From a virus: a DNA stretch of 55,910 nucleotides. Within the stretch, counting starts at the first letter, position 1; each line of letters opens with the position of its first letter. Both the position numbers and the translations under genes were made by a program. The notes below the pieces were generated by a model that was given only the letters and a program-made list of their open reading frames with translations, ran no database searches and had not been told where the DNA came from. This document shows positions 10,972 to 53,098 of the stretch, one piece after another. The stretch lies in the IMG/VR virus record IMGVR_UViG_3300049789_000029, positions 1 through 55,910 of that record, one strand, 5' to 3'.

Positions 10972-11439
10972 TCAATCCAGTTGTTGAATTCGGAAGAAGT
11001 GATGGTCCGGAGACGGAATGCCGTTCGTTCGAAACGCGAAGTTCGTTGTCGCCAGAAATGTGTTGAGCGGAATCCACTCTCCGGAGTTCAGGTCGTTCGC
11101 ACGCTCCCACCTGTAGTGATGTCCATTCGTGAGATTGTTCGCCTTCGTCACGATGTAGAACGGCACTACGAAGTTCGTGTCCGGAGCGAGCAAGTTGTAT
11201 TGCTCCACGTTCAGCCAAATCTGGTTTGTGTCCAAAGGAGGAATGGTGTTCGTCATGCAGTTGGTGCACGGCGGACATGGGTCCGGATCACACGGAGTAG
11301 GCGGGCCTTCGGACTTCCGAATCGCTTGAAATACCGGAGCCGGTTTCTTCGTCACGCATCCCGCCACCAGAACGGCGATGATGGCCACGAATGCCATAAT
11401 CGAAATGATGATGACCCATGTTTGTGTTTTTGTTTTCAT
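10972..11439 (-). CDS. Exported lipoprotein-like protein with Verrucomicrobia-type C-terminal module
   Basis: The 155-residue protein has a basic N-terminus, a hydrophobic segment and a lipobox-like LVAGC near residue 28, so it is probably a membrane-attached lipoprotein. A Cys/Pro-rich stretch follows (PCDPDPCPPCTNC). The C-terminal half reads ERANDLNSGEW...HFFRIQQL, a version of the 'STNLxxW...FYR' module frequent in secreted Verrucomicrobia proteins and also present in the products at 16258 and 52544. It may act at the host envelope during lysis or exclusion. The gene is coupled to the GT2 gene (ATGA, 11436-11439). Confidence 0.55.
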   Translation of the reverse strand: MKTKTQTWVIIISIMAFVAIIAVLVAGCVTKKPAPVFQAIRKSEGPPTPCDPDPCPPCTNCMTNTIPPLDTNQIWLNVEQYNLLAPDTNFVVPFYIVTKANNLTNGHHYRWERANDLNSGEWIPLNTFLATTNFAFRTNGIPSPDHHFFRIQQLD

Positions 11440-12197
11440 ACGCTATAACCTCTCTCTCTGAGCCAATCGTGAATGATCGTCGGATGTGTTCCGTTGTATT
11501 CCAACAGCCGGTCTTGCCAGTCGTTCAGGCCCGGGCTTTCCATCCAGTTGCCTTGAAAGTTCTCAGCGTCCACGAGCCGTTGATCGTAAGAGTTGACCCA
11601 AATCTTGTGAACCACTCTGGCCTTTTTGAAATACGCATCGCGCTTTCGAAGGCACCCGTAGTGCATGATCTTCACTCCGCTGTTCTCTGCGATGCGTTCG
11701 ATAGGCCCGGAGTTCGGGTCCGGATAATCGCTGGGCATCCACATGTTTGCCGCGCCAACCCGTATCACGCGATGGCCAAGGCACTCACCGTGAGGAACGA
11801 GGTGTCTGGAATCCTTGAAAAAGTTGTAGCGCTCACACATGAGCGTTCGATGTTCACGAGCCGCCCGTAGAACTTCCTCGTAAGAATCCTCGTGAAGGAT
11901 TTCGTCGGCATCCAACTGAACGTGCCACTCCGTCTTCAGATGTTGGCGAGCGTAATTCAGATACTCCGGCCACCAGAGATTGGTGTGCACCGGATCAGTC
12001 CACGGAAAGTTGAGAGTGTTGATCTTCGGCTCTCGTGCGGCCCATTCGTCAATAGCGGCTCGTGTTCCATCGTCGGAGTCGCAATCGCAGATGACAACTT
12101 CGTCGCAGATGGGAAGCAGACTCTTCACCGCTTCAATCCAACAATAATCGAGTCTAAATCCGTTTCGAACACAGACGTTGCCGCCAAGTGTGCTCAT
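11436..12197 (-). CDS. Family 2 glycosyltransferase
   Basis: The start MSTLGGNVCVRNG at 12197 is chosen because its ATG overlaps the stop of the upstream homing endonuclease as ATGA. The 253-residue protein shows ICDEVVICDCDSDDGT (nucleotide-sugar binding, residues ~31-46) and HVQLDADEI (the DxD metal site, ~88-96), the hallmark of GT2 enzymes that copy sugars from nucleotide donors. The C-terminal His/Arg-rich part is typical of phage GT2s. It probably decorates a virion protein or a host surface glycan. Confidence 0.8.
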   Translation of the reverse strand: MSTLGGNVCVRNGFRLDYCWIEAVKSLLPICDEVVICDCDSDDGTRAAIDEWAAREPKINTLNFPWTDPVHTNLWWPEYLNYARQHLKTEWHVQLDADEILHEDSYEEVLRAAREHRTLMCERYNFFKDSRHLVPHGECLGHRVIRVGAANMWMPSDYPDPNSGPIERIAENSGVKIMHYGCLRKRDAYFKKARVVHKIWVNSYDQRLVDAENFQGNWMESPGLNDWQDRLLEYNGTHPTIIHDWLRERGYSV

Positions 12198-12637
12198 AGG
12201 AACGTTGTGAGTGCTCTTTTCACTGGCCATCCATATAGACCCAGACGATTCACAAGGGTAGTCTTTTTAATTCCCGTTCTGTCGGCCCATTGAGAGATCG
12301 TCAATGTGATGCCCTTAAACGTAATTCTGACATTATCTCTTCTGTTGTTTTCCTGTTCTTTCCATGTCGCCCATTTGCAGTTCGCAGGACAATATCCCCT
12401 CTCGTTGTTTACCCGCTCTATCGTCAATCCCTTTCTCCACGACGGAAACATATCCGTGGCAAAGTTCTTGAACTCTTGCCATCGCTTGCAAAGCCTTATT
12501 CCCCGGCCTCCATAATTTTTGAACATTGGATGTCGCTGGTTTGAACACCGCTTTCTGATACTCCTCCAGCAGTCGTATATCGGGTGTGATTTACCGTTTC
12601 TGCAAAACCCGTGCTTTGTGTTCTTGTGCGGTTTCAT
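12194..12637 (-). CDS. Free-standing homing-endonuclease-like protein (HNH/AP2-type)
   Basis: The 147-residue protein has the common phage layout HPIYDCWRSIRKRC, then YGGRGIRLCKRW-x-F, then LTIERVNNERGYCPANCKWAT and EQENNRRDN, a form widely found in selfish phage endonucleases. A C-terminal helix-turn-helix-like segment (ISQWADRTGIKKTTLVNRL) resembles NUMOD1 DNA-binding modules. It is inserted between two glycosyltransferase genes with ATGA overlaps on both sides, so it has become part of the operon. Confidence 0.7.
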   Translation of the reverse strand: MKPHKNTKHGFCRNGKSHPIYDCWRSIRKRCSNQRHPMFKNYGGRGIRLCKRWQEFKNFATDMFPSWRKGLTIERVNNERGYCPANCKWATWKEQENNRRDNVRITFKGITLTISQWADRTGIKKTTLVNRLGLYGWPVKRALTTFL

Positions 12638-14316
12638 TCGTAGTCAAATGACCCCGGGATTCTGTGCAGGTTATGGTCAAGATATTTGCCCCAAATAGCA
12701 TTGAATGTTGCGTTGGCCTGCCCCACCAACTCTTGAATGTTGCCTAGCTTTGCGGTGCTTTGATGTTCAAGATGGACTCCGGTAGCATGTGGAGTATATC
12801 GTATCCGCCATCCCGCTCTTCGCATCGCGAGACAGAACGCATCATCTTCCGCATAAATTTTAAAGCGCTCGTCAAAGCCATCTATTCCGTAAAATGCTTC
12901 TCTGCGAACAAGGACACTAGCGCCGTTGATATTTTCCATGTCCACGGCCTGTTTGATAGTCGGATCACGGTGCCGGTAATCGATGTGACCCCAGCCTCTT
13001 GCTCCCGGCTCTCTCATTTTTCCTGCATGGTAGATAGTCCCATCCGGATACCGAAGTAGATGTCCCACCATTCCGACTTCCGAATCCATTTCGAACTTCA
13101 TCCGTGACACGGCTTCCGGGTCCAAGAACACGTCATCGTTCAACAGCAGCAGAAACTTCCCGTTGGAGTGGCGAGCGCCGAAGTTCACGTTTCGACCGTA
13201 ACCGATTTGATTCACGAACTTCTGCACGTATTTGATCTTGGGATGTTGCAGCGCTCCCGGTGGAATGCGTGAGTAACCTTCCCCGGTGACAATCACTTCC
13301 TGCACTTGGGGGAGCACGCACTCCAAAGTCCGGTTGAGCGTGTTCACGTCCGGCTGATATATCGGAATGATGGCCGACACGTCGTCACCGAACCGATACC
13401 GCAACCGTGCGTTGGCCCAATTCGCTACAAGCTCCGGGTCAATCTGCTGGCAAGGCGGCATGTGCTCCGACTTGGGGCAGAGGTTCTGCTGGCAGTTCAA
13501 GCAGTCCAGCTTCGGGGCTACTGAAATGAAATCGTTCTGATCATTCAGGTGAAGGTCCGGGCTGGAGGACTGGGAGATTGTCACCATCGGAATTCCCAAG
13601 GCAGCAGCGACGTGCATCGGACCTGTGTCCACGCTGATCATCAAATCCGCCACGGAGATGTATTCGATCACGTTGTCAAAGTGGCGGCAGTTTAGATCAA
13701 CGAAGTTCTTGGGAGCGGGATGACGTCCAACCCAAAACTTTGTTCCCTTCGTTTTCTCTGCAACGATTTCCCAAATCCAATCCGGAACATTGCGCACGTT
13801 GTAAGAGTCGGAGCGCGGGCACACGAATACCCACGGCCTCTCATACTGTGAAAGCTTTTGGCGGACGGCGTGCTTCACATTCTGGTTCACCCGAATCTTG
13901 GGTTTGCAGTTGAGTGCATCACCGATGAGGATTCCACGAGCACGCAACTGGAGTTGGGCCTTCTCAAAGAACATCGTGTGAAAATGTTTCTGCGTTCTCT
14001 GAGGATCGTTCTCGTAAGCACCGTCAAGATCGATGTGGCAGAACCCACCCGGCTCCGTGACATCGAACAGGTTGGGATGCCGTTTCAACAGGCAATGACA
14101 ATGCGGGTGAGATTGCATCGTCACTTCGAAGTTCATTTGAATCAGCCTGTCCGCAACAACCGTGGCGCACAAAGCATCTCCAAGAGCAGCAGTGCGACGA
14201 AGGATGATCGGTGTGGCGTTGGCTCGCTCTTGGTCTCGCTTGGCGAGAAAGGCGGCGTTACCTCCGCCGCCCGGGTCTGGTTTCAGCATAAAGCAGGAAT
14301 CCTTGCTCACTTCCAC
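12634..14316 (-). CDS. Bifunctional glycosyltransferase: GT9-like plus GT2 fusion
   Basis: The 560-residue protein joins two enzymes. Residues ~35-315 are GT9/heptosyltransferase-like: RRTAALGDALCATVVADRL near the start and the diagnostic ISVDTGPMHVAAALGIP near residue 226. Residues ~320-560 are GT2: VSAIIPIYQPDVNTL, then FLLLLNDDVFLDPEAV (metal site near 390) and ERFKIYAEDDAFCLAMRRAG with the ED catalytic motif. GT9 enzymes build LPS cores, GT2s extend polysaccharides, so the fusion could add two consecutive sugars. The start may alternatively be the internal ATG at 14289 (MLKPDPGGGG). Confidence 0.8.
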   Translation of the reverse strand: MEVSKDSCFMLKPDPGGGGNAAFLAKRDQERANATPIILRRTAALGDALCATVVADRLIQMNFEVTMQSHPHCHCLLKRHPNLFDVTEPGGFCHIDLDGAYENDPQRTQKHFHTMFFEKAQLQLRARGILIGDALNCKPKIRVNQNVKHAVRQKLSQYERPWVFVCPRSDSYNVRNVPDWIWEIVAEKTKGTKFWVGRHPAPKNFVDLNCRHFDNVIEYISVADLMISVDTGPMHVAAALGIPMVTISQSSSPDLHLNDQNDFISVAPKLDCLNCQQNLCPKSEHMPPCQQIDPELVANWANARLRYRFGDDVSAIIPIYQPDVNTLNRTLECVLPQVQEVIVTGEGYSRIPPGALQHPKIKYVQKFVNQIGYGRNVNFGARHSNGKFLLLLNDDVFLDPEAVSRMKFEMDSEVGMVGHLLRYPDGTIYHAGKMREPGARGWGHIDYRHRDPTIKQAVDMENINGASVLVRREAFYGIDGFDERFKIYAEDDAFCLAMRRAGWRIRYTPHATGVHLEHQSTAKLGNIQELVGQANATFNAIWGKYLDHNLHRIPGSFDYE

Positions 14317-14984
14317 TCCTTCACTAACCAGCAGTAATCGGGAAGAGTAGCCCTGATTTCATCAGTTACTTTGGGCTGAATTTTCTCCATCGGCAAATGC
14401 ACCTTCAATCGTAATGGACACGAACAGAGTTCGCACACTCCAAGCTTTGCATCATGCGAAGTCTCAAGCTTCATGTCGTTCTTCAACTGAATCGTTTTCC
14501 GAATCGCTTCGCTGGCTTGCCGCGTGAAGAAAGACGACAGGTCTCCCTCCATGTTGAACCGACAGCCAGCGCAAACTCCAGCGCGTGCGTTGCTCTGTTC
14601 CGGGGGCACTGCCTCCGCACCGCTTGCAATCCATTCCACGAGGGTTTCACCGCCCGCCACAACACGTTGACTTTTTTGGAGCAACGTCTGTTGCGGGCGG
14701 ATTGAAAGTGGGGGGCTTGGGTCTCCTGATCCTGTGATGTATTTCGTCCACCCCATTTGCTCGCAAATCTTGGCGTTGTAGGCGTCCAACTCTTCGCGCA
14801 CGTTGTCAACGTCTGTCGGCCAGCCGTGCTTCTCTTTCAAAAACGGATTGGCATTGCGATGAGAGATAATCGCCTGCACTATCGATTCGAAGCTGCTATA
14901 TCTTGGTGGTCGCCACCCTGTCTCGGGTTGATAATACGAGAGGCCATTTGGTATTTGCCGATTTCTGTCAATGAGTCGTGCCAT
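14307..14984 (-). CDS. Zinc-binding phage protein of unknown function
   Basis: The 225-residue protein has two cysteine knuckles in its C-terminal half, VCAGCRF near residue 138 and VCELCSCPL near 185, plus a final CWLVKEW. The N-terminal half (MARLIDRNRQIPNGL...) is soluble and Pro-rich, with SFESIVQAIISHRNANPF. Such proteins accompany glycosyltransferase genes in other phages as far as I recall, but I cannot assign a role. It overlaps both neighbours by 10-17 bases. Confidence 0.55.
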   Translation of the reverse strand: MARLIDRNRQIPNGLSYYQPETGWRPPRYSSFESIVQAIISHRNANPFLKEKHGWPTDVDNVREELDAYNAKICEQMGWTKYITGSGDPSPPLSIRPQQTLLQKSQRVVAGGETLVEWIASGAEAVPPEQSNARAGVCAGCRFNMEGDLSSFFTRQASEAIRKTIQLKNDMKLETSHDAKLGVCELCSCPLRLKVHLPMEKIQPKVTDEIRATLPDYCWLVKEWK

Positions 14985-15507
14985 AAGCTGGAGTGTTGCA
15001 TCTTTCCCCCCTTCTCACCATGCATACGTAAGATACTGAGAGGCCAAACCGTCTTGCCAGTTCTGTTGCTGACAGTGGGGAGTGCTTAATCATTTTGATT
15101 TTGTTTCGGTTGAGAATCTTGGATGTTCTGGTACGCCCTTTTTGTGATGCATCTCGCATATTGTCCTTCTGCGTCCCCAGAAAAAGGTGAGCAGGATTCA
15201 CGCATTTAGGATTATCACATGTGTGGCAGAGAAATTCTTTGTTTGTGATCTTTCTTCCACATAGTTTCCAACAGAGGCGAGATACCTGAATGCATTTCCT
15301 CTTATTGGTAATCGCTGCATATCCATTTCTCAATGCTGCCATCCAGTTCCAGCAGCCCGTTTGCGAGTCTTTCTGAACTCGTCTAATAATCTCCTTCAAA
15401 GTCCACCGCTTCGGAAGGATTCTTCCACTCGCGTCCCTTTGTACTTCCCACCATTTAGAGCGGCCCATATTGATGCGGGTTATAAACTCATGTCTCTGTG
15501 GAGTCAA
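14968..15507 (-). CDS. HNH homing endonuclease (HNH_3 type)
   Basis: The 179-residue protein carries the HNH_3 core FLCHTCDNPKCVNPAHLF followed by GTQKDNMRDASQKGR, and upstream a GCWNW-type beta segment common in these enzymes. The C-terminus has a helix-turn-helix-like stretch (SATELARRFGLSVSYVCMVRRG) for DNA recognition. The second possible start, MGRSKWW (15468), would remove 13 residues. It is the first gene of the leftward late operon and abuts the divergent XRE gene, a typical insertion point for mobile endonucleases. Confidence 0.85.
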   Translation of the reverse strand: MTPQRHEFITRINMGRSKWWEVQRDASGRILPKRWTLKEIIRRVQKDSQTGCWNWMAALRNGYAAITNKRKCIQVSRLCWKLCGRKITNKEFLCHTCDNPKCVNPAHLFLGTQKDNMRDASQKGRTRTSKILNRNKIKMIKHSPLSATELARRFGLSVSYVCMVRRGERCNTPAYGTTH

Positions 15508-15553
15508 ACAAAATAGTTGACAGATGTTAGCTGGTTATGCGAATTGTCTGAAC

Positions 15554-15781
15554 ATGCCTGCTACTGACAAATGTCCAAAGTGCAAAGGAACCGGGCGAGT
15601 CCCCAATCAAAAAAGTGTGGGTGAGGAAATGCGCCAGCTTCGCGAGAAGCACGGCAAGTCACTGCGACAAATCGCCAAGATTCTTGGATTTTCCGCGCCT
15701 TACATTTCTGATTTAGAACACGGAAGGCGGGACTGGAATCCGGCAACAATGCTCAACTACACCAACGCCTGTAAACAATGA
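15554..15781 (+). CDS. XRE-family transcriptional regulator with an N-terminal zinc knuckle
   Basis: The 75-residue protein starts MPATDKCPKCKGTGRVP, a single CxxC knuckle, then an XRE helix-turn-helix: EEMRQLREKHGKSLRQIAKILGFSAPYISDLEHGRRDW, split by the recognition helix SAPYISDLE. Such proteins bind operators as dimers. The ATG at 15554 is preferred over one at 15524 since the extra residues look non-coding. Its stop overlaps the GroES start as ATGA. It faces the leftward late operon, so it is well placed to switch between the two directions. Confidence 0.8.
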   Translation: MPATDKCPKCKGTGRVPNQKSVGEEMRQLREKHGKSLRQIAKILGFSAPYISDLEHGRRDWNPATMLNYTNACKQ

Positions 15782-16062
15782 AACTCCTCTCTGATCGAAT
15801 GCTCGTTGAAATGATGGAACGTCCCAAGATGTCCGGCATGATCCATTTGCCAGACCAACACCACGACTTTGCGGACGGCAACTTCTGCCGAGTGCTGAAC
15901 GTTGGTCCGGAGTGCAAGGAGGTGAAGAAGGACGATCTGGTTTTCTTCCACTCCTACCACGAAGGCGGAGTCGCTCTGCCGGATGGCACGAAGATCATCC
16001 GCGAGAAAAACGTTTTGCTCGTCATCCCACAACAACCACCGAATCAAAATAAACAACTATGA
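15778..16062 (+). CDS. GroES-like co-chaperonin (Cpn10)
   Basis: The 94-residue protein matches Cpn10 length and layout: an initial DRMLVEM strand, a mobile-loop region (MERPKMSGMIHLPD), VLNVGPECKEVKKDDLVFF, and the final IIREKNVLLVI strand. GroES caps GroEL; phages such as T4 (gp31) supply their own cap to fold the major capsid protein. No GroEL gene is in the window, so it would work with host GroEL. The gene sits directly after the XRE regulator. Confidence 0.85.
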   Translation: MKLLSDRMLVEMMERPKMSGMIHLPDQHHDFADGNFCRVLNVGPECKEVKKDDLVFFHSYHEGGVALPDGTKIIREKNVLLVIPQQPPNQNKQL

Positions 16063-16358
16063 AAGTTCCAAAACTTCATTGGACCCTGTGGGCGTGGTTC
16101 GTCTTCTCACTGGGATTCGGAATCACAATCAAACTCGCCGCCGACGTGGACAAGAACACCGGATGGCGAATGTTCATCTGGGCTGTTGTCATCTCGTGCA
16201 CATTCGCGCTGGCTGCCTTTTTCCTATCCCTCCGCAACTACCTCAAACTCAAATCCTATGAAAACCAAATGGATCATCACACTGGTTATCGTTTCGGCAC
16301 TGGTAGGAGTGTCGCAAGTCAAACCCAGCAGCGCACAACCCGCAAGCCAAGACCCTAA
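16059..16358 (+). CDS. Small membrane protein with two transmembrane segments
   Basis: The 99-residue protein has two hydrophobic segments, WTLWAWFVFSLGFGITIKLA (8-27) and FIWAVVISCTFALAAFFL (39-56), with a short charged turn between. The tail after residue 67 overlaps the next gene by about 100 bases and looks unlike coding sequence, so the functional part may end near residue 70. A holin or envelope role is possible. The start overlaps the GroES stop as ATGA. Confidence 0.55.
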   Translation: MKVPKLHWTLWAWFVFSLGFGITIKLAADVDKNTGWRMFIWAVVISCTFALAAFFLSLRNYLKLKSYENQMDHHTGYRFGTGRSVASQTQQRTTRKPRP

Positions 16359-16923
16359 TCGTCCGAAGCTTGTTGACTGCACGGCTGAGTTCATTATCGG
16401 CGGACTCGTCCTTGTGGTTGGAGTCGTCATCTACGTTGGCCTCAAAAAGTTTTGTGAAAAACATCTGCCGCCTGATCAACCACCCGCTCCGCCTCCGCCA
16501 CCGTGCACAAACTGCAACCCGGCTCATCCATCGTGGCCGTGCACCAACTGTCCTCCACCCGCTAAGTCACTCGTAAAAAGCTTCGCTCCTTTTCCGCTTC
16601 TCCAGTTGGATTCCGGCAGCGCCGTGGATTACTCCGACATCACCAGCTACGGCTGGTTCGATGCGTTCTCCAATCGCTTCCAGATTTACTTCACGACGAA
16701 GATTGAGGAGAGCACAAATCTGATCGACTGGACTTCACGCTTCTCTCTGGAAGGTTACGTGAGCTTCGGTGATCTGGCTCTGAGATGGCCTTCCAACGCT
16801 GTGACCGTAGTTCGCTCGAACGGCGTGGCTGTCGGCACGAACTGGTCTTGGCTTCAGACAGAGCCGGTGTCCATCGACTCGCAACCGGCAGCAAGGAAGT
16901 TCTATCGGCTGGCACATGAGTAA
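16258..16923 (+). CDS. Exported Pro/Cys-rich protein with Verrucomicrobia-type C-terminal module
   Basis: The ATG at 16258 gives 221 residues starting MKTKWIITLVIVSALVGVSQ, a typical signal peptide. A second hydrophobic segment follows (FIIGGLVLVVGVVIYVGL), then a proline run with two PCTNC motifs, and a C-terminal domain containing EESTNLIDWT and ending KFYRLAHE. The latter is the module common in secreted Verrucomicrobia proteins. The same PCTNC plus module pairing is seen in the product at 10972, so the two are likely paralogues acting at the envelope. Confidence 0.6.
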   Translation: MKTKWIITLVIVSALVGVSQVKPSSAQPASQDPNRPKLVDCTAEFIIGGLVLVVGVVIYVGLKKFCEKHLPPDQPPAPPPPPCTNCNPAHPSWPCTNCPPPAKSLVKSFAPFPLLQLDSGSAVDYSDITSYGWFDAFSNRFQIYFTTKIEESTNLIDWTSRFSLEGYVSFGDLALRWPSNAVTVVRSNGVAVGTNWSWLQTEPVSIDSQPAARKFYRLAHE

Positions 16924-17167
16924 GAGGAGCGAAGACCCACAGATAGAATTCACACTTCCCGATGAACCCCGATTCTTCCTCAACTACGGGCTGTTGTGTC
17001 CGAACTGCAACCTCACGGTCAAGGTGCTCAAGCAGACGCACCGAGAGACGAAGAAGCAATACTGGACACTCGGATGTCCGTATTGTCGGTTACAAACTGA
17101 GCCGTGCGAATCTCTTGAGATAGCACGGCGCACATTCAAACTCCTCAAGAAGATCATCGCATCATGA
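16916..17167 (+). CDS. Zinc-ribbon protein
   Basis: An 83-residue protein with CPNC at about residues 28-31 and CPYC near 54-57, which together form a zinc ribbon, followed by a helix (LEIARRTFKLLKKI). Its start overlaps the upstream stop by 8 bases and its stop overlaps the next ATG as ATGA. Such small ribbons in phages often modulate transcription or bind nucleic acid; the role here is unknown. Confidence 0.6.
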   Translation: MSKRSEDPQIEFTLPDEPRFFLNYGLLCPNCNLTVKVLKQTHRETKKQYWTLGCPYCRLQTEPCESLEIARRTFKLLKKIIAS

Positions 17168-17418
17168 CGTTCAAAGAAGCTCTCTCTGAAGCCAGCCGTC
17201 GCATGGGGTGGACTGAAGAACAAATCGCCAAGGCGATGCAACAAGCCAGCCTTGTTGTGCCAATGCCAAAGGAAATGTTGTATCACGAAATTCCTCCGGA
17301 CAAAGCGGAGGAGTTGGTTCAACGCTTGGTGTCAGTTCTTAAGAAGGTGGACGCCCATTTTGATCATGCGGAGAAGATGCTGAACCAGAGACTTCGAAAT
17401 CTTTCATCGAACAATTAG
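17164..17418 (+). CDS. Small helical protein of unknown function
   Basis: The 84-residue protein is predicted mostly helical (MTFKEALSEASRRMGWTEEQIAKAMQQ..., then ELVQRLVSVLKKVDAHFDHAEKMLNQRL). No signal peptide or metal site is visible. It is coupled to the zinc-ribbon gene by ATGA at 17164-17167. Confidence 0.55.
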   Translation: MTFKEALSEASRRMGWTEEQIAKAMQQASLVVPMPKEMLYHEIPPDKAEELVQRLVSVLKKVDAHFDHAEKMLNQRLRNLSSNN

Positions 17419-17446
17419 TAAACCCACAACAGAAAGAACAACCAAC

Positions 17447-17722
17447 ATGACAAGACCGAAAACAGAAGCGCTGCCCGGAATGGAGCGCAAGGGAATCAAG
17501 GAAATCGAAACGCTGGCTGATGATTACGTCTCTCACCGTGACAAGCGGATGGCCGCGCTCAAGAAAGAGCTTGAGGCAAAGACGAAACTCATTGACGCCA
17601 TGAAGAAGCACGGGCAAAAGACTTACGAGTTCGAAGAGGACGGCCTGACCGTGACGGTGGAGTTGCAGATCGGAGACGAGAGCGTCAAGGTCAAGAAGGC
17701 CGAACTCGGAGAAGGCGATTGA
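17447..17722 (+). CDS. Small coiled-coil protein, conserved phage type
   Basis: The 91-residue protein has a charged helical centre (YVSHRDKRMAALKKELEAKTKLIDAMKKHG) and a C-terminal beta-hairpin-like end (TYEFEEDGLTVTVELQIGDESVKVKK). The helix-plus-hairpin pattern recalls small phage proteins found near recombination or host-takeover genes. I do not assign a function. Confidence 0.6.
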   Translation: MTRPKTEALPGMERKGIKEIETLADDYVSHRDKRMAALKKELEAKTKLIDAMKKHGQKTYEFEEDGLTVTVELQIGDESVKVKKAELGEGD

Positions 17723-17941: not shown

Positions 17942-17985
17942 GGACTCAGCAAAAACTCTGCGATATGGCCAAGTGTGTGTGTGCA

Positions 17986-18018: not shown

Positions 18019-18033
18019 CTCCCCTTGAAAATT

Positions 18034-20715: not shown

Positions 20716-20716
20716 T

Positions 20717-25822: not shown

Positions 25823-25872
25823 CAGCGCAACATCTACCAAGCATCATAGGACACCTTGGTAGATGGACGCTG
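25823..25872 (+). promoter_or_regulatory. Strong hairpin displaying a repeated loop, upstream of the AAA+ gene
   Basis: CATCTACCAAG (25831-25841) pairs perfectly with CTTGGTAGATG (25855-25865); CAGCG/CGCTG (25823-25827/25868-25872) extends the stem across a small internal loop. The 13-base loop CATCATAGGACAC is part of the 17-base repeat also found at 24401. A stem that presents a conserved loop is typical of a protein- or RNA-binding site in a leader. It lies 50 bases before the AAA+ start codon. Confidence 0.55.
25839..25855 (+). repeat. 17-base intergenic repeat, copy 2
   Basis: Identical to 24401-24417. Here it spans the loop of the hairpin at 25823-25872 and the last bases of its arms. 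It lies 66 bases before the AAA+ start codon, the same distance as the variant at 23515 from its downstream gene. Confidence 0.55.
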
Positions 25873-25921
25873 GGCGCAACGTTCAGCACAAAACATCAAC
25901 CAACAGAAAGGACAGTTAAGT

Positions 25922-26968
25922 ATGAGAATAAGTGAGTACGGAGACCTTATGGAGAAGGCGCTCCCCAAAGGACGGAAAGTCTTGTCAGTCGGCCCGCCCG
26001 GAGTCGGCAAGACAGAACAGGCTGGCACATCCGCACGGCGTTGCGGGATGGAATTCATCGGCCTGTGTTCAGCGTTGGAAGACCCAAGCTCCATTCGGGG
26101 CTATCCGTCACGAGGAGCCAACGGGGAAGCAACGCATTGCCTGTTCGATGGCATTGCCAAGGCGTTCAAAGCGGAGAAGCCCACGCTTCTCTTTTTCGAT
26201 GACTTGGGCATGGCCAGTGAGAGCACGATGCGAGCGATTGTTCGGCTCGTGCAGTTCGGTGAGATTGATAACCGCAAGCTCCCGGATCATGTGGTGATCG
26301 GTGCGGCGACGAATGACGTAGGGCACGGCGCTGGCGTCTACGGGATGATTGAACCGCTGAAGAGCCGGTTTCATTCCATCGTCAACGTGGAGACGAGTCT
26401 GGAGGACGTGATTGCCTACGGTCTTGCCCATGGCTGGCCAACGGATATGTGCGCCTATCTGCGCAATGCGCCAGATGCATTGCATGATTGGAAGCCTACA
26501 AAGGACATGAAGATCGGTGGCGCGTGTCCGCGTGGCTGGGCATATGCGGCGGACTGGGTGAACGATGGCGTTCTTGACCCGGAGGTGTTGGCTGGCTGTA
26601 TCGGCAAAGGCAGAGCCACGGCTTACATCGCGTTTCGCCAGTTGATCAACGAACTGCCGGACGTGCATCAGGTGTTGATGAATCCGGATTCGGCTCCGGT
26701 GCCTGAGAATCCGTCTGCGCGGTTTTTGGTGTCCATGGCCTTAGCAGGTCACATGGATGGCGGCAACTTCGGCAACGCGATGAAATACCTTGGTCGCTTG
26801 CCCGGGATGTTCCGTGGGTTCGCAATCCGCGACTCCATCAGAGCGGAGAACGAGAAGCGCAAGAATGATACGCTCAAGCCCGGGTATCGGCAGATTAGCG
26901 CCAGTCGTGACTTCACGGCATGGGCCTGTTCTGAGGACGGCAAAGCCATCATGTCGGCGGCATCGTGA
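25922..26968 (+). CDS. MoxR/CobS-like AAA+ ATPase
   Basis: The 348-residue protein has Walker A GPPGVGKT (residues 24-31), Walker B LLFFDDLG (~88-95), sensor-1-like VVIGAATND, and an arginine-bearing EPLKSRFHSI segment, the pattern of the MoxR/CobS clade. These rings remodel partner proteins with the help of VWA proteins, and a VWA partner is encoded next but one. The start at 25922 follows an AAAGGACAG box (25907-25915). The upstream extension from 25856 would translate the leader hairpin and is rejected. Confidence 0.8.
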   Translation: MRISEYGDLMEKALPKGRKVLSVGPPGVGKTEQAGTSARRCGMEFIGLCSALEDPSSIRGYPSRGANGEATHCLFDGIAKAFKAEKPTLLFFDDLGMASESTMRAIVRLVQFGEIDNRKLPDHVVIGAATNDVGHGAGVYGMIEPLKSRFHSIVNVETSLEDVIAYGLAHGWPTDMCAYLRNAPDALHDWKPTKDMKIGGACPRGWAYAADWVNDGVLDPEVLAGCIGKGRATAYIAFRQLINELPDVHQVLMNPDSAPVPENPSARFLVSMALAGHMDGGNFGNAMKYLGRLPGMFRGFAIRDSIRAENEKRKNDTLKPGYRQISASRDFTAWACSEDGKAIMSAAS

Positions 26969-27156
26969 AAAGGTTCAAGGTTCCCAAAGGAGCCGCCATC
27001 ACTGAGCACCTGTCTCCCCAACAGATTGAAGCGGCTGGCCGCTATCACTACTACGTGGAGAGAAAGCGCACAGCGAGCAAGAGTATGCGCAAGCGTCTGC
27101 TGGAACTACAACGACAGGCGCTTGCCGACTACATGACGGCAACTTTGATCAAGTGA
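26965..27156 (+). CDS. Small basic protein between the AAA+ and VWA genes
   Basis: The 63-residue protein (M/V-KRFKVPKGAAITEHLSPQ...) starts at GTG, overlapping the AAA+ stop as GTGA. The C-terminal two thirds form a basic helix (YYVERKRTASKSMRKRLLELQRQALADY). By position it may be an adaptor of the AAA+/VWA pair. Confidence 0.55.
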   Translation: MKRFKVPKGAAITEHLSPQQIEAAGRYHYYVERKRTASKSMRKRLLELQRQALADYMTATLIK

Positions 27157-27168
27157 AAGGACAGAAAA

Positions 27169-28434
27169 GTGAGTAAAGAAACGATGCGAAACAAACGTGT
27201 CGAGAAGGCGCAACTGCGCGTTCTCTTCAACGTGCCGTTCTTCGCACCCGGAGTGGCGCAACTCCAGCAAGTGATCTGGGATGCGACGATTCCAACGGCG
27301 TGCACGGACGGAAAGGTCATCCGGTGGAATCCGGATTGGTTCGATCAACTGGAAGATGAGGTGATCGTCACGGTATTGTGTCACGAAGTCGCACACGCAC
27401 TTCTTGGCCATCTGTGGCGGATTCCCCCGGGAGGTGATCCCAAGGTCTGGAATCAAGCCTGTGATCATGCGGTCAACCTGATGCTGAAGGAGTTCGGCAA
27501 GACGGTGACAAACCGGAACATGGCTGATCCATTTCCGTTCCCGAAGCCGGAAAGTGCGTATTGCATGGACCCGCGTTTCTCCGGGATGTCGGAGGAAGCC
27601 ATCTACCAACAACTGGCACAGAACTCCGGTGGAGGTGGTGGGGGAGGCCAAGGACAGGCCGTGGCGGGTTCGGGGGGTAGTTCCGGCCAGCCAAGCGGGA
27701 GAAAAGGGCAGAGCGGGCAGGGAGCAAGCGGCAATACCCCTCAGAATGGTTCTCCTCCTCCGTTCGGAGAGTTCACTCCCCAGCCAGCGACAGACCAGCA
27801 AGCCAAGCAGGACAAGACCCAATGGGAGAACACCCTATTGCAGAGCATTGCGGCCAGCAAAGGCCGTGGTGATGTCCCCGGGATGCTGGACAGGTTTGTT
27901 GAGGAGTTGATGAACCCCAAAGTTCCTTGGACAGAGCTGGTCAAGAACTGGCTTCGCGAGAAGGCAGAGGATGACTGGGACTGGACCAAGCCGAATCCTT
28001 ACTTCGATGACGGGGACTTCATCCTCCCCAGTCTGCACAGCGAGCGGATGGGAACGGCAGTGTTCGCGACGGATACGTCCGGCAGTATCGATCAAACGGT
28101 GCTGGCCAAGTTCCAAGCGGAGAAGCAAGGATTCTTGGACGAGATGAAGCCGACGAAGCTCGTGGACATCTGCTGTGACACCCGGATCACTCAGGAGAAG
28201 GAATACAGGGTGGGTGATCAGATTGACACCAACTGCCCGGGTGGAGGCGGGACACGGTTTGAGCCGGTGTTCGAACATATTGAAGGGTTCACGGACAAGC
28301 CCAAGTTCGCGGTCTACCTGACAGACTTGGACGGAAGCTTCCCGGCACAGGAACCGGATTATCCGGTGCTCTGGGTGGTCTACGGATGCGGGGATAAGAA
28401 GGCACCGTTTGGAGACACCATTCAAGCGGAGTAA
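27169..28434 (+). CDS. VWA protein with zincin-like motif (CobT/DUF2201-like)
   Basis: The 421-residue protein has an N-terminal metallopeptidase-like domain with HEVAH (residues 72-76) followed by LLGH, a Gly/Ser/Gln-rich disordered linker (~150-210), and a C-terminal VWA-like domain with the MIDAS start DTSGS (~301-305). This is the domain order of DUF2201 proteins, which pair with MoxR-type AAA+ ATPases. The start is GTG 27169, 4 bases after an AAAGGACAG box (27156-27164). It probably acts as substrate adaptor of the ATPase. Whether the zinc site is catalytic is unknown. Confidence 0.75.
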   Translation: MSKETMRNKRVEKAQLRVLFNVPFFAPGVAQLQQVIWDATIPTACTDGKVIRWNPDWFDQLEDEVIVTVLCHEVAHALLGHLWRIPPGGDPKVWNQACDHAVNLMLKEFGKTVTNRNMADPFPFPKPESAYCMDPRFSGMSEEAIYQQLAQNSGGGGGGGQGQAVAGSGGSSGQPSGRKGQSGQGASGNTPQNGSPPPFGEFTPQPATDQQAKQDKTQWENTLLQSIAASKGRGDVPGMLDRFVEELMNPKVPWTELVKNWLREKAEDDWDWTKPNPYFDDGDFILPSLHSERMGTAVFATDTSGSIDQTVLAKFQAEKQGFLDEMKPTKLVDICCDTRITQEKEYRVGDQIDTNCPGGGGTRFEPVFEHIEGFTDKPKFAVYLTDLDGSFPAQEPDYPVLWVVYGCGDKKAPFGDTIQAE

Positions 28435-36228: not shown

Positions 36229-36380
36229 AAGCCTTCTACTTCTGGATTGGAACAAGCTCTCTGCTTTTGCTGGGAGCTTTGTTCTTTAAAAACCTACCCG
36301 TCCTCCAAGGCTGGATGCTGACTCTGTTCCTTCTGGCCTTGGTTGTCGGATTCATGATCAAACTATGCCGTGGACAGTAA
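36225..36380 (+). CDS. Small two-TM membrane protein, holin candidate
   Basis: The 51-residue product has two hydrophobic segments (FYFWIGTSSLLLLGALFF and MLTLFLLALVVGFMIKL) separated by a short turn, typical of small holins or membrane accessories. Coupled to the previous gene by ATGA. No endolysin gene was recognised nearby, so the holin role is a weak inference from size and topology. Confidence 0.4.
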   Translation: MKAFYFWIGTSSLLLLGALFFKNLPVLQGWMLTLFLLALVVGFMIKLCRGQ

Positions 36381-36841
36381 AACGCAAAACGATTCCGGCA
36401 TTTGACAGGTTCATTCGAAAACTACGACGATGTGATAACGGATGCTGGAAGTGGTGCGGACACGTCAACAAGCAACTGGGTTATGGCTTCTTCATGGTGA
36501 AGAGGCCCGCTCCAGTATTGGCGCATCGGTTTTCCTTTGAAGCGTTTCGCTATCCCATTCCCACAGGAATGACTATCGATCATCTCTGTCGCAACCGATG
36601 GTGTGTAAATCCATTTCATCTGCAAGTGGTGACGATCAGAGAAAACATTCTGAGGGGTACAGGTCAAAGCGCACGCAATGCAGTCAAGACACATTGTAAA
36701 TTCGGTCACGAATTCACCAAGCAGAACACATATCTTACAGGAACAGGCGGCAGGCAGTGCCGAATTTGCAGGAGGCTTCGATTTATTCTGTGGTCATGTA
36801 AAACGAAAGGAAATCATTCCAAAGCTTCTGCCGCTGGGTGA
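36365..36841 (+). CDS. HNH homing endonuclease with C-terminal zinc finger
   Basis: The 158-residue protein has CWKWCGHVNKQLGYGFF, then the HNH_3 core MTIDHLCRNRWCVNPFHLQVV and RENILRGTG, and a zinc-binding tail (HCKFGHEF...RQCRICRRLR). It overlaps the convergent ejection-protein gene by 59 bases at their 3' ends, as if it had been inserted at the end of the rightward operon. Confidence 0.85.
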   Translation: MPWTVKRKTIPAFDRFIRKLRRCDNGCWKWCGHVNKQLGYGFFMVKRPAPVLAHRFSFEAFRYPIPTGMTIDHLCRNRWCVNPFHLQVVTIRENILRGTGQSARNAVKTHCKFGHEFTKQNTYLTGTGGRQCRICRRLRFILWSCKTKGNHSKASAAG

Positions 36842-47445: not shown

Positions 47446-49835
47446 GGCGGATTCTGAGTGTTACAGGTCATCACAGGGAAGTCCGTCTTCTCAACCGGAT
47501 TGGCGTGCAATAGGAATCCGCGCACGCGGCAGAAGCCGACAATGGTAAGACGCACTTGAAACTGATAACCCACGTAAGCCGGTCTTCCAGTCAGAGCTTC
47601 GCATCCTGCCACCGGAGGTTTCGGAGTGATCATCGTGGCGCGGAACGTTTCCTGAAAGGGTTGGATGGGATAACAAATGGGATTGAACACGTCCTCGCAG
47701 GTGTTGCGAGCGCTGCACTGTTTCCATTTGTGCCACGGATACCAGCACGGATCAGAGTCCGGACGGTAATCCAGATAGAAGGCGACTTCACCGGCCATCC
47801 TGTCCACCCACAGTTCGAACGCGATTAGCTCTTTGAGTTCGAACTCTTCTCCCCAGTTGAGAGCCGGGAACTCCATTGACCATTTGACTCGTGTGTCGTC
47901 CGCTTCGAACCGTTCGGACTTGGTGAGTTCCCACAGCATGAACGAGGAGTCCGTATCCGAGAGAGCAATCGCGAAGGCTCGCTCGACATTGTTGATCGTT
48001 CCAACAAGCAACTGCAACACGCTCAAGCCTTGCTGGATTCCCTCCCACGTTGGCGGGTGAGTTTCTCCAAAGGTGCTGATGGGCATGAAGTCCAACGGAA
48101 TCACGGCTGAGTGAATCACGCCTTGAGCCACTTGCCGGGGAAGAGTGGACTGCAACATCCGATTGTTGAAGTTGATTCCCGTGGCGAATCTCAACAGGTC
48201 TGTCTGAGCCAGAGCCAGCACACGGTTTTCGTTCGCACTGAACTGGATGTTTCCCCACTGGCCGAAGTATCGGATGGAAGTCATCGCCGAACGGATTGCC
48301 GGTTCCAGAGATTGGAAGAACAAGTCTCCGTTCACCGGGACAACGGACCTGTCATTGACACTCCCGTTTGCAATCTGCACGACTGATTGAAGCGGCTGAT
48401 TCGCGCTGGTTGAAGCAATCCAATCCGTGCGCGTCACCGGCACAACGAGGTTGTAGACGGTCTTCAGCGTGAAGATGAACAGCCGTCCCTGTCCAAGCGC
48501 TGCATCCAAGTTCGCATTGTGAGAGAGCGCGGTGATGTTTCCAGAACTGTCCGGAACACGGAATCCATCTCCTCCAATCGCCAGCGGATTCTCTGTCACG
48601 TTCAACACCGAATCCCGAAAGTTGTAGGTGCCTGTTCCAGACGGTCCCCCAACGATGTCACCGGCTGAGTATGATCTTCCCTGAGCGTACCACACCCGGC
48701 CCATGTAATAGTCCATCGGTCCAGCGGCAGGAATCTCGTTCTGCCCGTTGATCTGGGAAGCCAGAGCCGTATTTGTGATCCCTCGTGATCGTCTCAGAGT
48801 GGTTCCGTCCCAGAAGAGAGGCAGCGTCTTGTAATCGCCAGCTTGGATAATGAGGAACTCTTCGGCCTGACAAAAATAAAAGTAATCCAAAAATGCGGGC
48901 ATCCCTCCGACGTTGGTTTCATCCGGAGGGAATGACGAGTTGACCAGAAGGAGGTTAATCTGATCGAACAGAATAGATGTGATCTGAGAAGTGAAGGCAG
49001 TGTTACTGAAGGCTCCTGCTGTAGAGCGCACAGCGCAACTCACGCTCACCGTAACAGTCCCTCCTAAAGCGGGTGTCACGAAAGACGGCACTGTAAATAG
49101 GACCGGGGGTCCGACATACGGAGCCAATGGTTGCACGTTCAATCCGCCGTTGGGTTGCACTCCAACGATAACACCGGGCGGCATGTTCTCATTCCTGATC
49201 GTCAAATCCGCAGTCCAATATCCAAGCGAGTTGGCTGGAGGATTGGTGATGTGCAGTGTCGTGTTGGCGGCAGAGATTAAAGTGAAACGATTCGTGATCG
49301 GAACCGTGATGTTGACTGCACCTCGGTACGCTGTGGCCAGAGCAGCGAACACGGTTCCGTTCACAGCCGGTGCGGTGTAGTTCCCCAGCAATCCAATGGA
49401 AGTGTTGGCTTGGGTTCCGGCTTCAACTGTGATGATTGAACCGGGAGGAGCGTTGAGATTCTTCAAATACACTCCAACAGGAAATGGAGTCAGGTTAAAC
49501 GCAGTATCCGAAAGATTGATGGCAACGCCTGTCTCCGGATCAATCTTGTAGATTTTTCCACCCTTAGCCACGATGGGATATGTCGTGCCGTCCGGCGCGT
49601 CATACATGAAGGCACCCTGAAAGATTCCGTCCCCCGCGAACATTCTGCCCTTGAGCTTGTAAGCTGCACGTTGGGTGATGCCTCCGTCTCTGACTGTCGC
49701 GTTGTTCAGCCACGCGAGTTCATTTCGGGAAAGACCGTTCGGGTTGCGCGGGCCTTGGACAGTTGTAACCTTGATGGAGTTGACTCCACCGGAGAAGTCA
49801 ACGCTGCCGTCTGGTTTGCTAACATCGCTTCCCAT
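47442..49835 (-). CDS. Large tail protein, stabilisation/tail-tube-B type
   Basis: The 797-residue protein starts with VDFSGGVNSIKVTTV... and LAWLNNATVRDGGITQRAAY, a pattern I recognise from podovirus tail proteins (P22 gp10-like, T7 gp12-like) that close the portal channel. Inside are beta-rich repeats with YFYFCQAEEFLIIQ, LFWDGTTLRRS and DLFFQSLEPAIRS that suggest a propeller-like fold. Cysteines cluster near the C-terminus (CWYPWHKWKQC). It is the first gene of the leftward tail operon and starts 55 bases from the divergent terminase. Confidence 0.65.
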   Translation of the reverse strand: MGSDVSKPDGSVDFSGGVNSIKVTTVQGPRNPNGLSRNELAWLNNATVRDGGITQRAAYKLKGRMFAGDGIFQGAFMYDAPDGTTYPIVAKGGKIYKIDPETGVAINLSDTAFNLTPFPVGVYLKNLNAPPGSIITVEAGTQANTSIGLLGNYTAPAVNGTVFAALATAYRGAVNITVPITNRFTLISAANTTLHITNPPANSLGYWTADLTIRNENMPPGVIVGVQPNGGLNVQPLAPYVGPPVLFTVPSFVTPALGGTVTVSVSCAVRSTAGAFSNTAFTSQITSILFDQINLLLVNSSFPPDETNVGGMPAFLDYFYFCQAEEFLIIQAGDYKTLPLFWDGTTLRRSRGITNTALASQINGQNEIPAAGPMDYYMGRVWYAQGRSYSAGDIVGGPSGTGTYNFRDSVLNVTENPLAIGGDGFRVPDSSGNITALSHNANLDAALGQGRLFIFTLKTVYNLVVPVTRTDWIASTSANQPLQSVVQIANGSVNDRSVVPVNGDLFFQSLEPAIRSAMTSIRYFGQWGNIQFSANENRVLALAQTDLLRFATGINFNNRMLQSTLPRQVAQGVIHSAVIPLDFMPISTFGETHPPTWEGIQQGLSVLQLLVGTINNVERAFAIALSDTDSSFMLWELTKSERFEADDTRVKWSMEFPALNWGEEFELKELIAFELWVDRMAGEVAFYLDYRPDSDPCWYPWHKWKQCSARNTCEDVFNPICYPIQPFQETFRATMITPKPPVAGCEALTGRPAYVGYQFQVRLTIVGFCRVRGFLLHANPVEKTDFPVMTCNTQNPP

Positions 49836-49890
49836 AACTTGATTCTGATTGGCACGCTACTACCGCACCTGTTAAAGACAAGAACATTGT

Positions 49891-51729
49891 ATGGGACGCA
49901 TTGCCAAGTATGGCGGCTTCTGGCGGGACACGATGCACCCGCTCCAAATCGAATTCGATTGCATTCGGCGCGGAGGAAAATGGTTATCGAAGAACGGACA
50001 GACAACTTACGGTAACGGACTTTTCTTCCACTACAAAGCAGCCATCTCAATCCTGTGGCCAGAAATCGTCTGGCACAAATGGAATGAACTCTTCCTCCAA
50101 GAATACATCACGCACCGAACCATCGGCATCATCGGACCGGCATCTTCCGGCAAGACCAACTCTGCCGCACTGGTGGCTCTCATTGACTACTACCCGTATC
50201 CTGATCAGACAACCATCATCTGCTGTTCCACAACGAAGGAGCGGTTGGAAGATCGTATCTGGGGAGAAATCAAATCTCTGCACCGCCGTGCCAAGGAGCG
50301 CATCTCGTGGCTCCCCGGAAACCTGATTGAAGGAAGGCTCCGCATCATCACTGATCAACGCTCCGCTGTGTTCGAAGGCCGTGACTTCCGCAACGGTCTC
50401 GTTGGCGTGCCGTGCAAGAAGGGAGAGAGCTACATCGGTCTCGGTGATTTTGCCGGTCTCAAGAACAAGCGCGTGCGCCTCTTCGGTGATGAGTTGAGTC
50501 TTCTTCCCCGTGTGTTCGTGGATGCCATTTCCAACTTGGACAAGAACCCGGACTTCAAGGCCGTTGGCATGGGCAATCCGAAGGAGACAACCGACGCGCT
50601 GGGTGTGTTCTGCGAACCGGCTGCGCATCTTGGAGGATGGGACGGCGGAATCGATCAGCTTGCGGAAACCAAGACGTGGGAGACACGTCGTCCAAACGGC
50701 ATCTGTGTTCAACTGGTAGGAACGGATTCTCCGAATTTGGATGGCAAGCTGGGTATTCCGTTGATCACTCAGGAACAGATTGACCGTGACGTTGCCTTCT
50801 ACGGGCTGGAGTCCCAGTGGTTCACGATGATGAATCAGGGCATGATGCCAAAGGGTCAAGGCTCCCGCCGTGTCATCACTCGTCAAATGTGTCTCAAGTT
50901 CGGTGCGATGGAGGAGCCACTGTGGTTGAACCAGCAGCGGACGCGCATCGGCTCTCTGGACGCAGCCTTCCGTGGGACAGGCGGGGACCGCTGTGTCTTC
51001 TGTGAAATCCAATTCGGGCCTGAAGCACTTCCGATGGACGACGGCGCTCTCATCACTTCTATCGTGAATCAGCGTCGCGATGCACCACGGCGAAAGAACA
51101 TTCTCGCTCTGATTGACATGCTCATCGTGCCGGTCAATCCAATCGATTCGGAAATCCCGGAGGATCAGATTGCCAACTTTGTCCGCGCTCAGTGCATGTC
51201 CCGTGGAATTCCGCCTGAGAACTTCTTCTTCGATGCCGGTATGCGCAGTTCGCTGGTCAGTTCGTTCGCTCGACTCTGGTCTCCGAACGTTGTCCCGATT
51301 GATTGCGGTGGGAAGCCTTCAGACCGTCCTGTCTCTTCGCAGATTACGATGCTCTGCAAGGACTACTACTCCAAGTTCGTCACGGAGTTGTGGTACTCCG
51401 TCCGCTACGTCGTGGAAGCCGGACAGTTCCGGGGCATGACAGAGGACGTGATGCTGGAAGGATGCGCTCGCGAATGGACTCGTGTCGGTGCCAACAAGAT
51501 CGAAGTCGAAACCAAGGAGAAGATGAAACAGAAGACGGGACGAAGCCCGGACCTGTTTGACTGTCTTGCCGTGGGAATCGAAGGAGCCAGACGAAGAGGT
51601 TTCGTGATCACCGAAATGGTAAACAAACGCGCCAACAGGCCCAATCCATTTGCTCGCGACTGGAGAGACGAGCTAAAAGAAAAAGCTCTTGGACTGTCAA
51701 AATCCAAGAGCCTCAACTACAAGGCGTGA
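49891..51729 (+). CDS. terL: Terminase large subunit
   Basis: The 612-residue protein contains Walker A GPASSGKT (residues 81-88), Walker B VRLFGDELSLL (~196-206) with the catalytic Glu, and a C-terminal nuclease with GSLDAAFRGTGGD (~354) and SPDLFDCLAVGIEGA. It pumps DNA into the capsid. It is alone on the plus strand, between leftward tail and leftward virion genes, with a separate divergent spacer (49836-49890). No small-terminase gene was recognised next to it. Confidence 0.85.
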   Translation: MGRIAKYGGFWRDTMHPLQIEFDCIRRGGKWLSKNGQTTYGNGLFFHYKAAISILWPEIVWHKWNELFLQEYITHRTIGIIGPASSGKTNSAALVALIDYYPYPDQTTIICCSTTKERLEDRIWGEIKSLHRRAKERISWLPGNLIEGRLRIITDQRSAVFEGRDFRNGLVGVPCKKGESYIGLGDFAGLKNKRVRLFGDELSLLPRVFVDAISNLDKNPDFKAVGMGNPKETTDALGVFCEPAAHLGGWDGGIDQLAETKTWETRRPNGICVQLVGTDSPNLDGKLGIPLITQEQIDRDVAFYGLESQWFTMMNQGMMPKGQGSRRVITRQMCLKFGAMEEPLWLNQQRTRIGSLDAAFRGTGGDRCVFCEIQFGPEALPMDDGALITSIVNQRRDAPRRKNILALIDMLIVPVNPIDSEIPEDQIANFVRAQCMSRGIPPENFFFDAGMRSSLVSSFARLWSPNVVPIDCGGKPSDRPVSSQITMLCKDYYSKFVTELWYSVRYVVEAGQFRGMTEDVMLEGCAREWTRVGANKIEVETKEKMKQKTGRSPDLFDCLAVGIEGARRRGFVITEMVNKRANRPNPFARDWRDELKEKALGLSKSKSLNYKA

Positions 51730-51733
51730 GCGC

Positions 51734-52159
51734 CTATTGCACTGGGGAACCCCGGGCTAAAGCAATTCCCTCCGCGATAGCTCTGGAAATCAACTGAACG
51801 TCCTTCACACGGTCAGCCGGTATCGGAGGTAGATCAACTCCCATGAGCAACAGTGTCGTGGACTGCACGATGATTGTTGCCGTGTCACTTTGAAACTGTT
51901 TGACGGGAAACCGCTGGAGAATCTGCACCACTTCGATGATGTCCAGATTGGTCCGGGTGGACGTGGCAATCTCCATCAAATCGTCGTGCGCCTTGTCGAA
52001 ACCCGGAGCGAGTTGAGGATGATCTTTCAGGGCTGCTTTGGTTCCCCCGTAAGCAGCGGAACGGGCTACGGCTGCCACTCGCTGGGGAGTGATTGTTTTA
52101 CAGCCGGTGAGGGTGAGGATACACGCGCAAGCACTGAGAGCGGCAATGAAGCGTTTCAT
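51734..52159 (-). CDS. Lipoprotein, o-spanin candidate
   Basis: The ATG at 52159 gives 141 residues starting MKRFIAALSACACILTLTGCK, a signal peptide with lipobox LTGC. The mature part is helical (VAAVARSAAYGGTKAALKDH) with a hydrophobic stretch near residue 98 (TIIVQSTTLLLMGVDLPP). It is preceded by a membrane-anchored coiled-coil gene, the arrangement of two-component spanins, but the lipoprotein is longer than usual o-spanins. Confidence 0.45.
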   Translation of the reverse strand: MKRFIAALSACACILTLTGCKTITPQRVAAVARSAAYGGTKAALKDHPQLAPGFDKAHDDLMEIATSTRTNLDIIEVVQILQRFPVKQFQSDTATIIVQSTTLLLMGVDLPPIPADRVKDVQLISRAIAEGIALARGSPVQ

Positions 52160-52191
52160 GCGGGCCGTATTAGACCCGCTGTGAAATCCTG

Positions 52192-52557
52192 TCAACGCTT
52201 CTTTCCGTTCTCCATCGCACGGATGCGGCTCTCGTGATCCTGAAGGATGATGTCCTGTCGCTGGTTGATTTCGTTCTTCACTTCCATCGTAGCTACCAGC
52301 GTCTTCAGTTCAGTGATGGCCGATTGCATCAGCGAGTCAGCAGCCTTTTGATCGGCCTTGTCTTGCTTATACTCGGCATCCCTGTCCTGTTTCTCCTTGT
52401 CATAATTGACCTGTGAGACGAACTGGGTCTTGAGAAAGAGATTGAGTAGGAGCAAGAGAATCGTTCCCACCTTCCACGCAAAATCCAAGCTGGCCTTCTG
52501 GCGTGAACTGATTCTCACTCCTAACGTCGTATCGGTCTTGTCTTCAGGGTGGCTCAT
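52192..52557 (-). CDS. Membrane-anchored coiled-coil protein, i-spanin candidate
   Basis: The 121-residue protein has a short basic N-terminus, one membrane segment (VGTILLLLLNLFLKTQFV, ~30-47) and a charged coiled coil (KEKQDRDAEYKQDKADQKAADS...). This is the topology of an inner-membrane spanin subunit. It precedes a lipoprotein gene in transcription order and overlaps the next upstream gene by 14 bases. Confidence 0.5.
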   Translation of the reverse strand: MSHPEDKTDTTLGVRISSRQKASLDFAWKVGTILLLLLNLFLKTQFVSQVNYDKEKQDRDAEYKQDKADQKAADSLMQSAITELKTLVATMEVKNEINQRQDIILQDHESRIRAMENGKKR

Positions 52558-53098
52558 TTAATGGGTTCCACACTTTTATGCGGATAGGTTCAATGTTTGT
52601 GCCGCTGACATTTCGTGACGTGCGGAAGAACTCTCTGTTGAACAACCGATTGAGAGTGACCGTGTTCGTTCCGCCAACCATCGCCGCTACTGACCACTGC
52701 CGTAAATTCGTAGAACTCCACAGCGTTGTAAAGTTCGTCCCGGACCACGTTACCGTGACTCTATCCGGAGGGTAAAGCGGGTATCTTACCTGTCCGGAGA
52801 AATCACTCTCCACATTTGTCCGGGAAAGCGTCACCGCGTAGAAGTGCGTGTCAAATGTTCCAGCCCAATTCGTTCGATCAATGACGTAGTTGGTGGATGA
52901 GCCGATGGCTGTCTTGTTCGTGAACGTCCATGGCTGGTTCCCATCGTAGAGATAAAAGAAATCTCCCGGAAGAAGCGGAGTAGGGTAACTCCACGTCAAC
53001 TCAACGTGATAGTAGATGTTTGTGTCTTCAGCCGGTGGCGGGGGCTGAACGAGTGCAAACAGTAATGGGGTCGTTGCGCATGTAATCAGCCAGTTCAA
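52544..53098 (-). CDS. Exported protein with Verrucomicrobia-type module
   Basis: The 184-residue protein has a short hydrophobic start (MNWLITCATTPLLFALVQ) and a fibronectin-like beta body (YYHVELTWSYPTPLLPGDFF..., TFDTHFYAVTLSRTNVES). The C-terminal part has LWSSTNLRQW followed by REFFRTSR, the 'STNLxxW...FFR' pattern found in secreted proteins of Verrucomicrobia. It shares this pattern with the products at 10972 and 16258. Confidence 0.55.
   Translation of the reverse strand: MNWLITCATTPLLFALVQPPPPAEDTNIYYHVELTWSYPTPLLPGDFFYLYDGNQPWTFTNKTAIGSSTNYVIDRTNWAGTFDTHFYAVTLSRTNVESDFSGQVRYPLYPPDRVTVTWSGTNFTTLWSSTNLRQWSVAAMVGGTNTVTLNRLFNREFFRTSRNVSGTNIEPIRIKVWNPLNEPP

Follow-up and report, generated by a model that had tools for sequence, protein, structure and literature searches.

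We analyzed a 55,910-base virus contig (hereafter the window, i.e. the whole stretch of DNA under study) and found that three of its predicted proteins, which end in a common STNL/ANDL..W...F[FY]R region, are not copies of a single protein: they comprise two phage families and one lone lipoprotein. Profile searches support the classification of this region as an unnamed C-terminal module typical of Verrucomicrobiota. In our preferred reading (probability of roughly 0.4), the window is the genome of a Verrucomicrobiota phage whose module proteins remodel the envelope of the infected cell, most likely excluding further phages. Known phages of Verrucomicrobiota are few, and the results provide a likely host phylum for an uncultured phage lineage of 41 related contigs, describe by a profile a module recurring in Verrucomicrobiota proteins, and single out a conserved overlapping membrane gene pair that has no family name.

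The first 127 bases of the record are repeated as its last 127, and the capsid gene, split over the record ends (Table), joins in frame across them to give 492 codons. This direct terminal repeat, together with the in-frame join, indicates a complete genome that forms a circle of ~55.8 kb; it is read as circularly permuted, with positions 1-568 and 54876-55910 meeting at the junction. It contains no tRNA genes. When the three proteins, and also family A5 (see below), were used one by one as tblastn queries against viral contigs, no relatives emerged, the sequences being too divergent; relatives were then reached via the terminase large subunit, used both as a route to the phage lineage and as a host clue. 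This revealed 41 viral contigs with terminases of about 51-75% identity and none among 50,697 GenBank phages, where the capsid protein of a related contig likewise had no relatives. The window phage is a member of a soil-type, uncultured lineage without a cultured relative. Homologue searches covered 12 related phage genomes besides the window. Elsewhere in the window, an AAA+ ATPase is followed by a DUF2201 metallopeptidase/VWA protein (25856-28434; a pair kept in two relatives, G002 and G006), and three small ORFs (12194-12637, 14968-15507 and 36365-36841), HNH-like on visual inspection and probably homing endonucleases, are patchy among the relatives.

Table. Features of the window and of related contigs (contig named before the position). 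ORFs are referred to in the text by their first coordinate.
Feature	Position	Strand	Remarks
Lone lipoprotein (10972)	10972-11439	-	155 aa; lipobox LVAGC; Pro/Cys-rich linker; marginal C-terminal module
GroES/Cpn10-like protein	15778-16062	+	Same operon as 16258; Pfam Cpn10 above cut-off
Two-TM hairpin protein (16059)	16059-16358	+	Overlaps 16258 by 101 nt, +1 frame
Family A5 protein (16258)	16258-16923	+	221 aa; Pro-rich linker with two PCTNC; C-terminal module
Terminase large subunit	49891-51729	+	PHROG terminase large subunit, 9.9e-9
Possible outer spanin (51734)	51734-52195	-	Lipobox LTGC; weak PHROG match to Rz-like spanin, E 0.0099
Possible inner spanin (52192)	52192-52557	-	TM and coiled coil; overlaps end of 52544
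Family A4 protein (52544)	52544-53098	-	184 aa, TTG start; fn3-like domain and C-terminal STNL..W..FFR module
Capsid gene	568 to 1 and 55910 to 54876	-	Split over record ends
Fibre-like protein	L119 4709-6118	-	
Fibre-like protein	L132 13131-14618	-	
Fibre-like protein	L032 1349-2899	-	
Fibre-like protein	L129 17115-19199	-	
Fibre-like protein	L013 5012-6061	-	
Fibre-like protein	L136 13623-15236	+	
Fibre-like protein	L136 9860-10870	+	

The three ORFs exist as originally predicted, each with the expected C-terminal pattern. The pattern is present in 3 of the 313 window ORFs versus 0.003 on average over 300 composition shuffles, a figure to be read with the fact that the pattern was fitted to the finding. 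A less biased test was provided by a bacterial-only profile of 38 Verrucomicrobiota module sequences, searched against all ORFs of at least 60 aa in the window and the 12 related phage genomes. This profile ranked the same three proteins of the window first (E-values of 9.9e-4 for 52544, 4.2e-3 for 16258 and 0.028 for 10972; best shuffled ORF, 1.0), with the caution that the 38 bacterial sequences had first been found with profiles containing phage sequences. Its eight best matches over the 13 phage genomes were members of families A4 and A5 (described below), plus 10972. Judged by these matches, 52544 is classified as a module member, 16258 is very probably one, and 10972 is one marginally. 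The F[FY]R element lies 4 residues from the protein end in 16258, 5 in 10972 and 25 in 52544; the module stops at most 6 residues short of the C-terminus in 31 of the 38 proteins from bacteria.

The PCTNC motif had been noted as common to two of the proteins: 10972 indeed contains one copy and 16258 two, and it occurs nowhere else among the ORFs of the 13 phage genomes. It is not conserved in the 16258 homologues, which lack it, and was set aside as a sign of common origin. The claim that the three genes lie in three different transcription units is doubtful, since in the circular genome 10972 and 52544 fall in one co-oriented minus-strand run. A tblastn search of plasmids and phages with the module consensus, 52544 and its homologue from G014 (a search of low sensitivity for so short a module) gave no match, nor did the module profile match any PDB entry significantly. 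An apparent single-sequence PDB match to designed beta-propellers (Cake, E 1e-15) was rejected as a sum over identical repeats: it consists of one short match repeated, and in the top rows no single stretch passes.

The module proved common in Verrucomicrobiota, in line with the original prediction. A mixed profile gave 174 matches in 40 of 115 genomes, with up to 23 per genome, and a phage-only profile found the same STNL..W..F[FY]R layout in 6 of 59. The bacterial carriers include PA14, cyclophilin and arabinofuranosidase-like proteins, and the module, in its phage and its bacterial form alike, falls outside every Pfam and NCBIfam model. The further claim of rarity elsewhere is weakly supported: 9.3 Mb of plasmid sequence from nine other phyla (Pseudomonadota, Gemmatimonadota, Planctomycetota, Acidobacteriota, Bacteroidota, Cyanobacteriota, Thermomicrobiota, Actinomycetota and Deinococcota) yielded a single weak match (16.5 bits), where some four would be expected at the average Verrucomicrobiota rate (estimated at ~0.4 per Mb). 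This is a fair control, if a small one, and secreted proteins may be scarcer on plasmids.

The terminase provides a second line of evidence on the host. Among 84,980 GTDB species genomes (one each), the terminase profile identified a sole relative, in "Verrucomicrobiia bacterium SKYB101", and a search of 387 Verrucomicrobiota genomes again returned SKYB101 as the only strong match (1.4e-203). The relative is located on a 3.8-kb contig, which may be a binned phage fragment, of a metagenome-assembled genome (MAG) that also carries 31 matches to the mixed module profile. The capsid protein of the lineage had no homologue in the 387 genomes. No CRISPR spacer matching the 20 kb of the window that were searched was found in them, the short blastn matches having been inspected for arrays at the best places only (0 arrays). 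We judge a Verrucomicrobiota host highly probable for the window phage, as a matter of judgement and not of proof.

Family A4 comprises 52544 and its homologues in related phages (L012/G007, L013, G014, L016/G008 and L002/G002), clustered near the terminase and sharing a layout of secretion signal (of lipoprotein or other type), fn3-like domain and module; five syntenic phage homologues were aligned with 52544. The Pfam fn3 model (PF00041) matched homologues with 24.7 and 24.2 bits versus a cut-off of 25, and gave no match to 52544 itself. Clear lipoprotein signals are present in the homologues of L012, L013, G008 and G014, and the N-terminus of 52544 is weakly hydrophobic, without a basic n-region. 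A structure model of 52544 (mean pLDDT 47) gave generic jelly-roll fold matches with Z below 7 and was left unused for its low confidence. As a separate observation, one relative encodes a papain-like C1 peptidase, recognized by eye, directly behind the terminase (L009, 11848-12609, minus strand), the place of lipoprotein genes in other relatives. Large fibre-like proteins with Sec-type signal peptides are also encoded near the terminase in related phages (Table). In two families of them the signal peptide diverges and the mature N-terminus is kept (SYFNxGFLRQP or YDTNxxA); Sec signals are unusual here, as tail fibres are assembled in the cytoplasm.

Family A5, represented by 16258, is defined by a signal peptide, a TM helix with Cys and Lys residues after it, a Pro-rich linker and a module-like C-terminus. 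Homologues were identified in G002 (E 4e-15), G004/L006 and L005, and by layout in G006, G012 and G009; 16258 and its L005 homologue had no match in GenBank phages, and the 387 Verrucomicrobiota genomes gave one weak partial match to the family (E 8.7e-4, residues 88-158). In 16258 itself, a hydrophobic N-terminal segment (signal peptide or first TM helix) precedes a second TM helix at about residues 43-66; its structure model was too poor for use. The A5 gene overlaps an upstream ORF for a two-TM protein of 92-99 aa (16059 in the window) in four phages (the window, G002, G004 and L005), by 101, 92, 95 and 89 nt and always in the +1 frame, while in G006 and G012 the two form one fused reading frame. 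This constant overlap geometry and the fusions suggest that the two-TM and A5 proteins work together. In the window and in G002, an HTH gene and a GroES-like gene precede the pair, with the GroES-like homologue adjoining it in G002, and the operon heads the plus-strand genes; the terminase immediately precedes the pair in G004 and L005. Family A5 proteins carry positive charges after the TM helix, from which a cytoplasmic C-terminal module is predicted. If this charge prediction holds, the module of 16258 would not be exposed on the outside, and the two proteins might instead act, or signal, across the inner membrane.

The third protein, 10972, has no homologue in the 12 related genomes. Its gene is flanked by a glycosyltransferase-like gene and a methyltransferase gene, to which it is coupled by overlaps of stop and start codons, inside a sugar-related cluster. 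This cluster (7017-14316) also encodes a two-domain glycosyltransferase (GT9 and GT2), methyltransferases and a sugar reductase-like protein.

All three module proteins are predicted to be directed to the membrane or beyond, signal peptides having been assessed visually and with a simple script: the proposed secretion or anchoring signals are a lipobox in 10972 and a hydrophobic N-terminus and TM helix in 16258, and that of 52544 is weak. As the module ends modular host proteins, it probably folds into a small beta domain with an attaching or packing role at the envelope; low-confidence structure models place beta strands in the module region. We favor surface remodelling or superinfection exclusion as the function, with lysis as the main rival. 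During infection the three proteins would enter the host envelope, with the module docking or packing there as it may do in the exported host proteins that end in it. The 16258/two-TM pair, expressed from its small operon with the HTH and GroES-like proteins, would reside in the inner membrane and the lipoproteins at the outer membrane, while 52544, adjoining the probable spanins, may instead aid late envelope disruption. Small phage membrane proteins and lipoproteins such as Cor, Llp and Imm are the usual agents of superinfection exclusion. None of the three proteins has a sequence match to any known exclusion protein, and several points count against the preferred reading: the A5 module is predicted to be cytoplasmic, which for 16258 also tells against the originally proposed and otherwise plausible envelope use, the terminase-side cluster resembles a lysis region, 10972 has a marginal module match and is unique, the secretion signal of 52544 is weak, and the MAG contig is only 3.8 kb long.

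The lysis alternative, which we regard as possible yet unlikely, holds that the terminase-side cluster consists of spanins with 52544 as an accessory, and that 16059 and 16258 act as partners, the former being class II holin-like. The gene order is 52544, 52192, 51734, the first two overlapping, and the best PHROG matches of 52192 (three weak ones, best E 0.011) and 51734 are Rz-like spanins, but with E-values of only about 0.01. (A match of 51734 to Cor was discarded as below noise, E 0.26.) Lysis genes of T7-like phages are usually sited behind the terminase, as is the A5 pair of G004 and L005. The size and two-TM layout of 16059 fit a candidate class II holin (a hairpin of ~100 aa), with no PHROG holin match to this protein. 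On the other hand, an endolysin was looked for and none was recognized, the pair in the window and G002 belongs to the operon with HTH and GroES-like genes at the head of the plus-strand genes, and family A5 has no coiled coil, the spanin candidates being separate genes.

Rather doubtful is the view of the module proteins as adhesins or virion-release aids, exported with the signal-peptide fibre-like proteins and coating the cell surface so as to bind polysaccharide or neighboring cells. The presence of such fibre-like proteins in the same cluster of relatives, the fn3 domains and the position of 10972 among sugar genes would fit it, but the window cluster has no signal-peptide fibre, no binding domain was recognized and the A5 C-terminus is predicted to be cytoplasmic. 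A broader idea that we hold to be similarly improbable is a lineage-wide exported apparatus, a phage-built cell coat of Sec-signal fibre-like proteins, fn3/module lipoproteins and the overlapping two-gene membrane pair, displayed via the C-terminal module shared with the host. Finally, the proteins could be pieces of host genes that the phage picked up and that serve no selected function, as the absence of 10972 from 12 of 12 relatives, the high divergence of the module and the differing layouts of the three proteins might suggest, but this seems improbable too, given that A4 keeps its terminase-side place and A5 its overlap geometry among phages whose terminases are 53-75% identical to that of the window. 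As for the related proposal that three host surface modules had been acquired, 52544 and 16258 at least belong to two distinct conserved phage families, which argues that they are old in the lineage and not recent captures.

Several known systems can be compared. The Verrucomicrobia phage P8625 is, as the window phage presumably is, a tailed phage of Verrucomicrobiota, but its terminase is unrelated and it contains no module match; its authors found signal peptides in none of its proteins (PMC4642752). Like the C-terminal domain of T9SS (TIGR04183) and PEP-CTERM, the module is a short, conserved region found at the very end of many exported proteins within a single bacterial group. However, no NCBIfam or Pfam model of these sorting domains matches the phage or bacterial module proteins; the likeness is one of position, and a sorting role for the module would be speculative. 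The Rz/Rz1 spanins resemble the 16059/16258 pair as an overlapping out-of-frame gene pair, and 52192 and 51734, the neighbors of 52544, have weak Rz-like matches; nevertheless, the layouts differ, since 16059 has two TM helices and no coiled coil, 16258 combines a TM helix with a beta-rich C-terminus, and neither protein matches a spanin profile. The closest functional parallel under our preferred reading would be Cor (T1/N15/phi80), Llp (T5) and Imm (T4), which are likewise small, phage-encoded, lipoprotein or membrane-anchored proteins made in the infected cell. They have no sequence match to the window proteins, which differ from them in their C-terminal fn3/STNL module, common to the phage and its presumed host.
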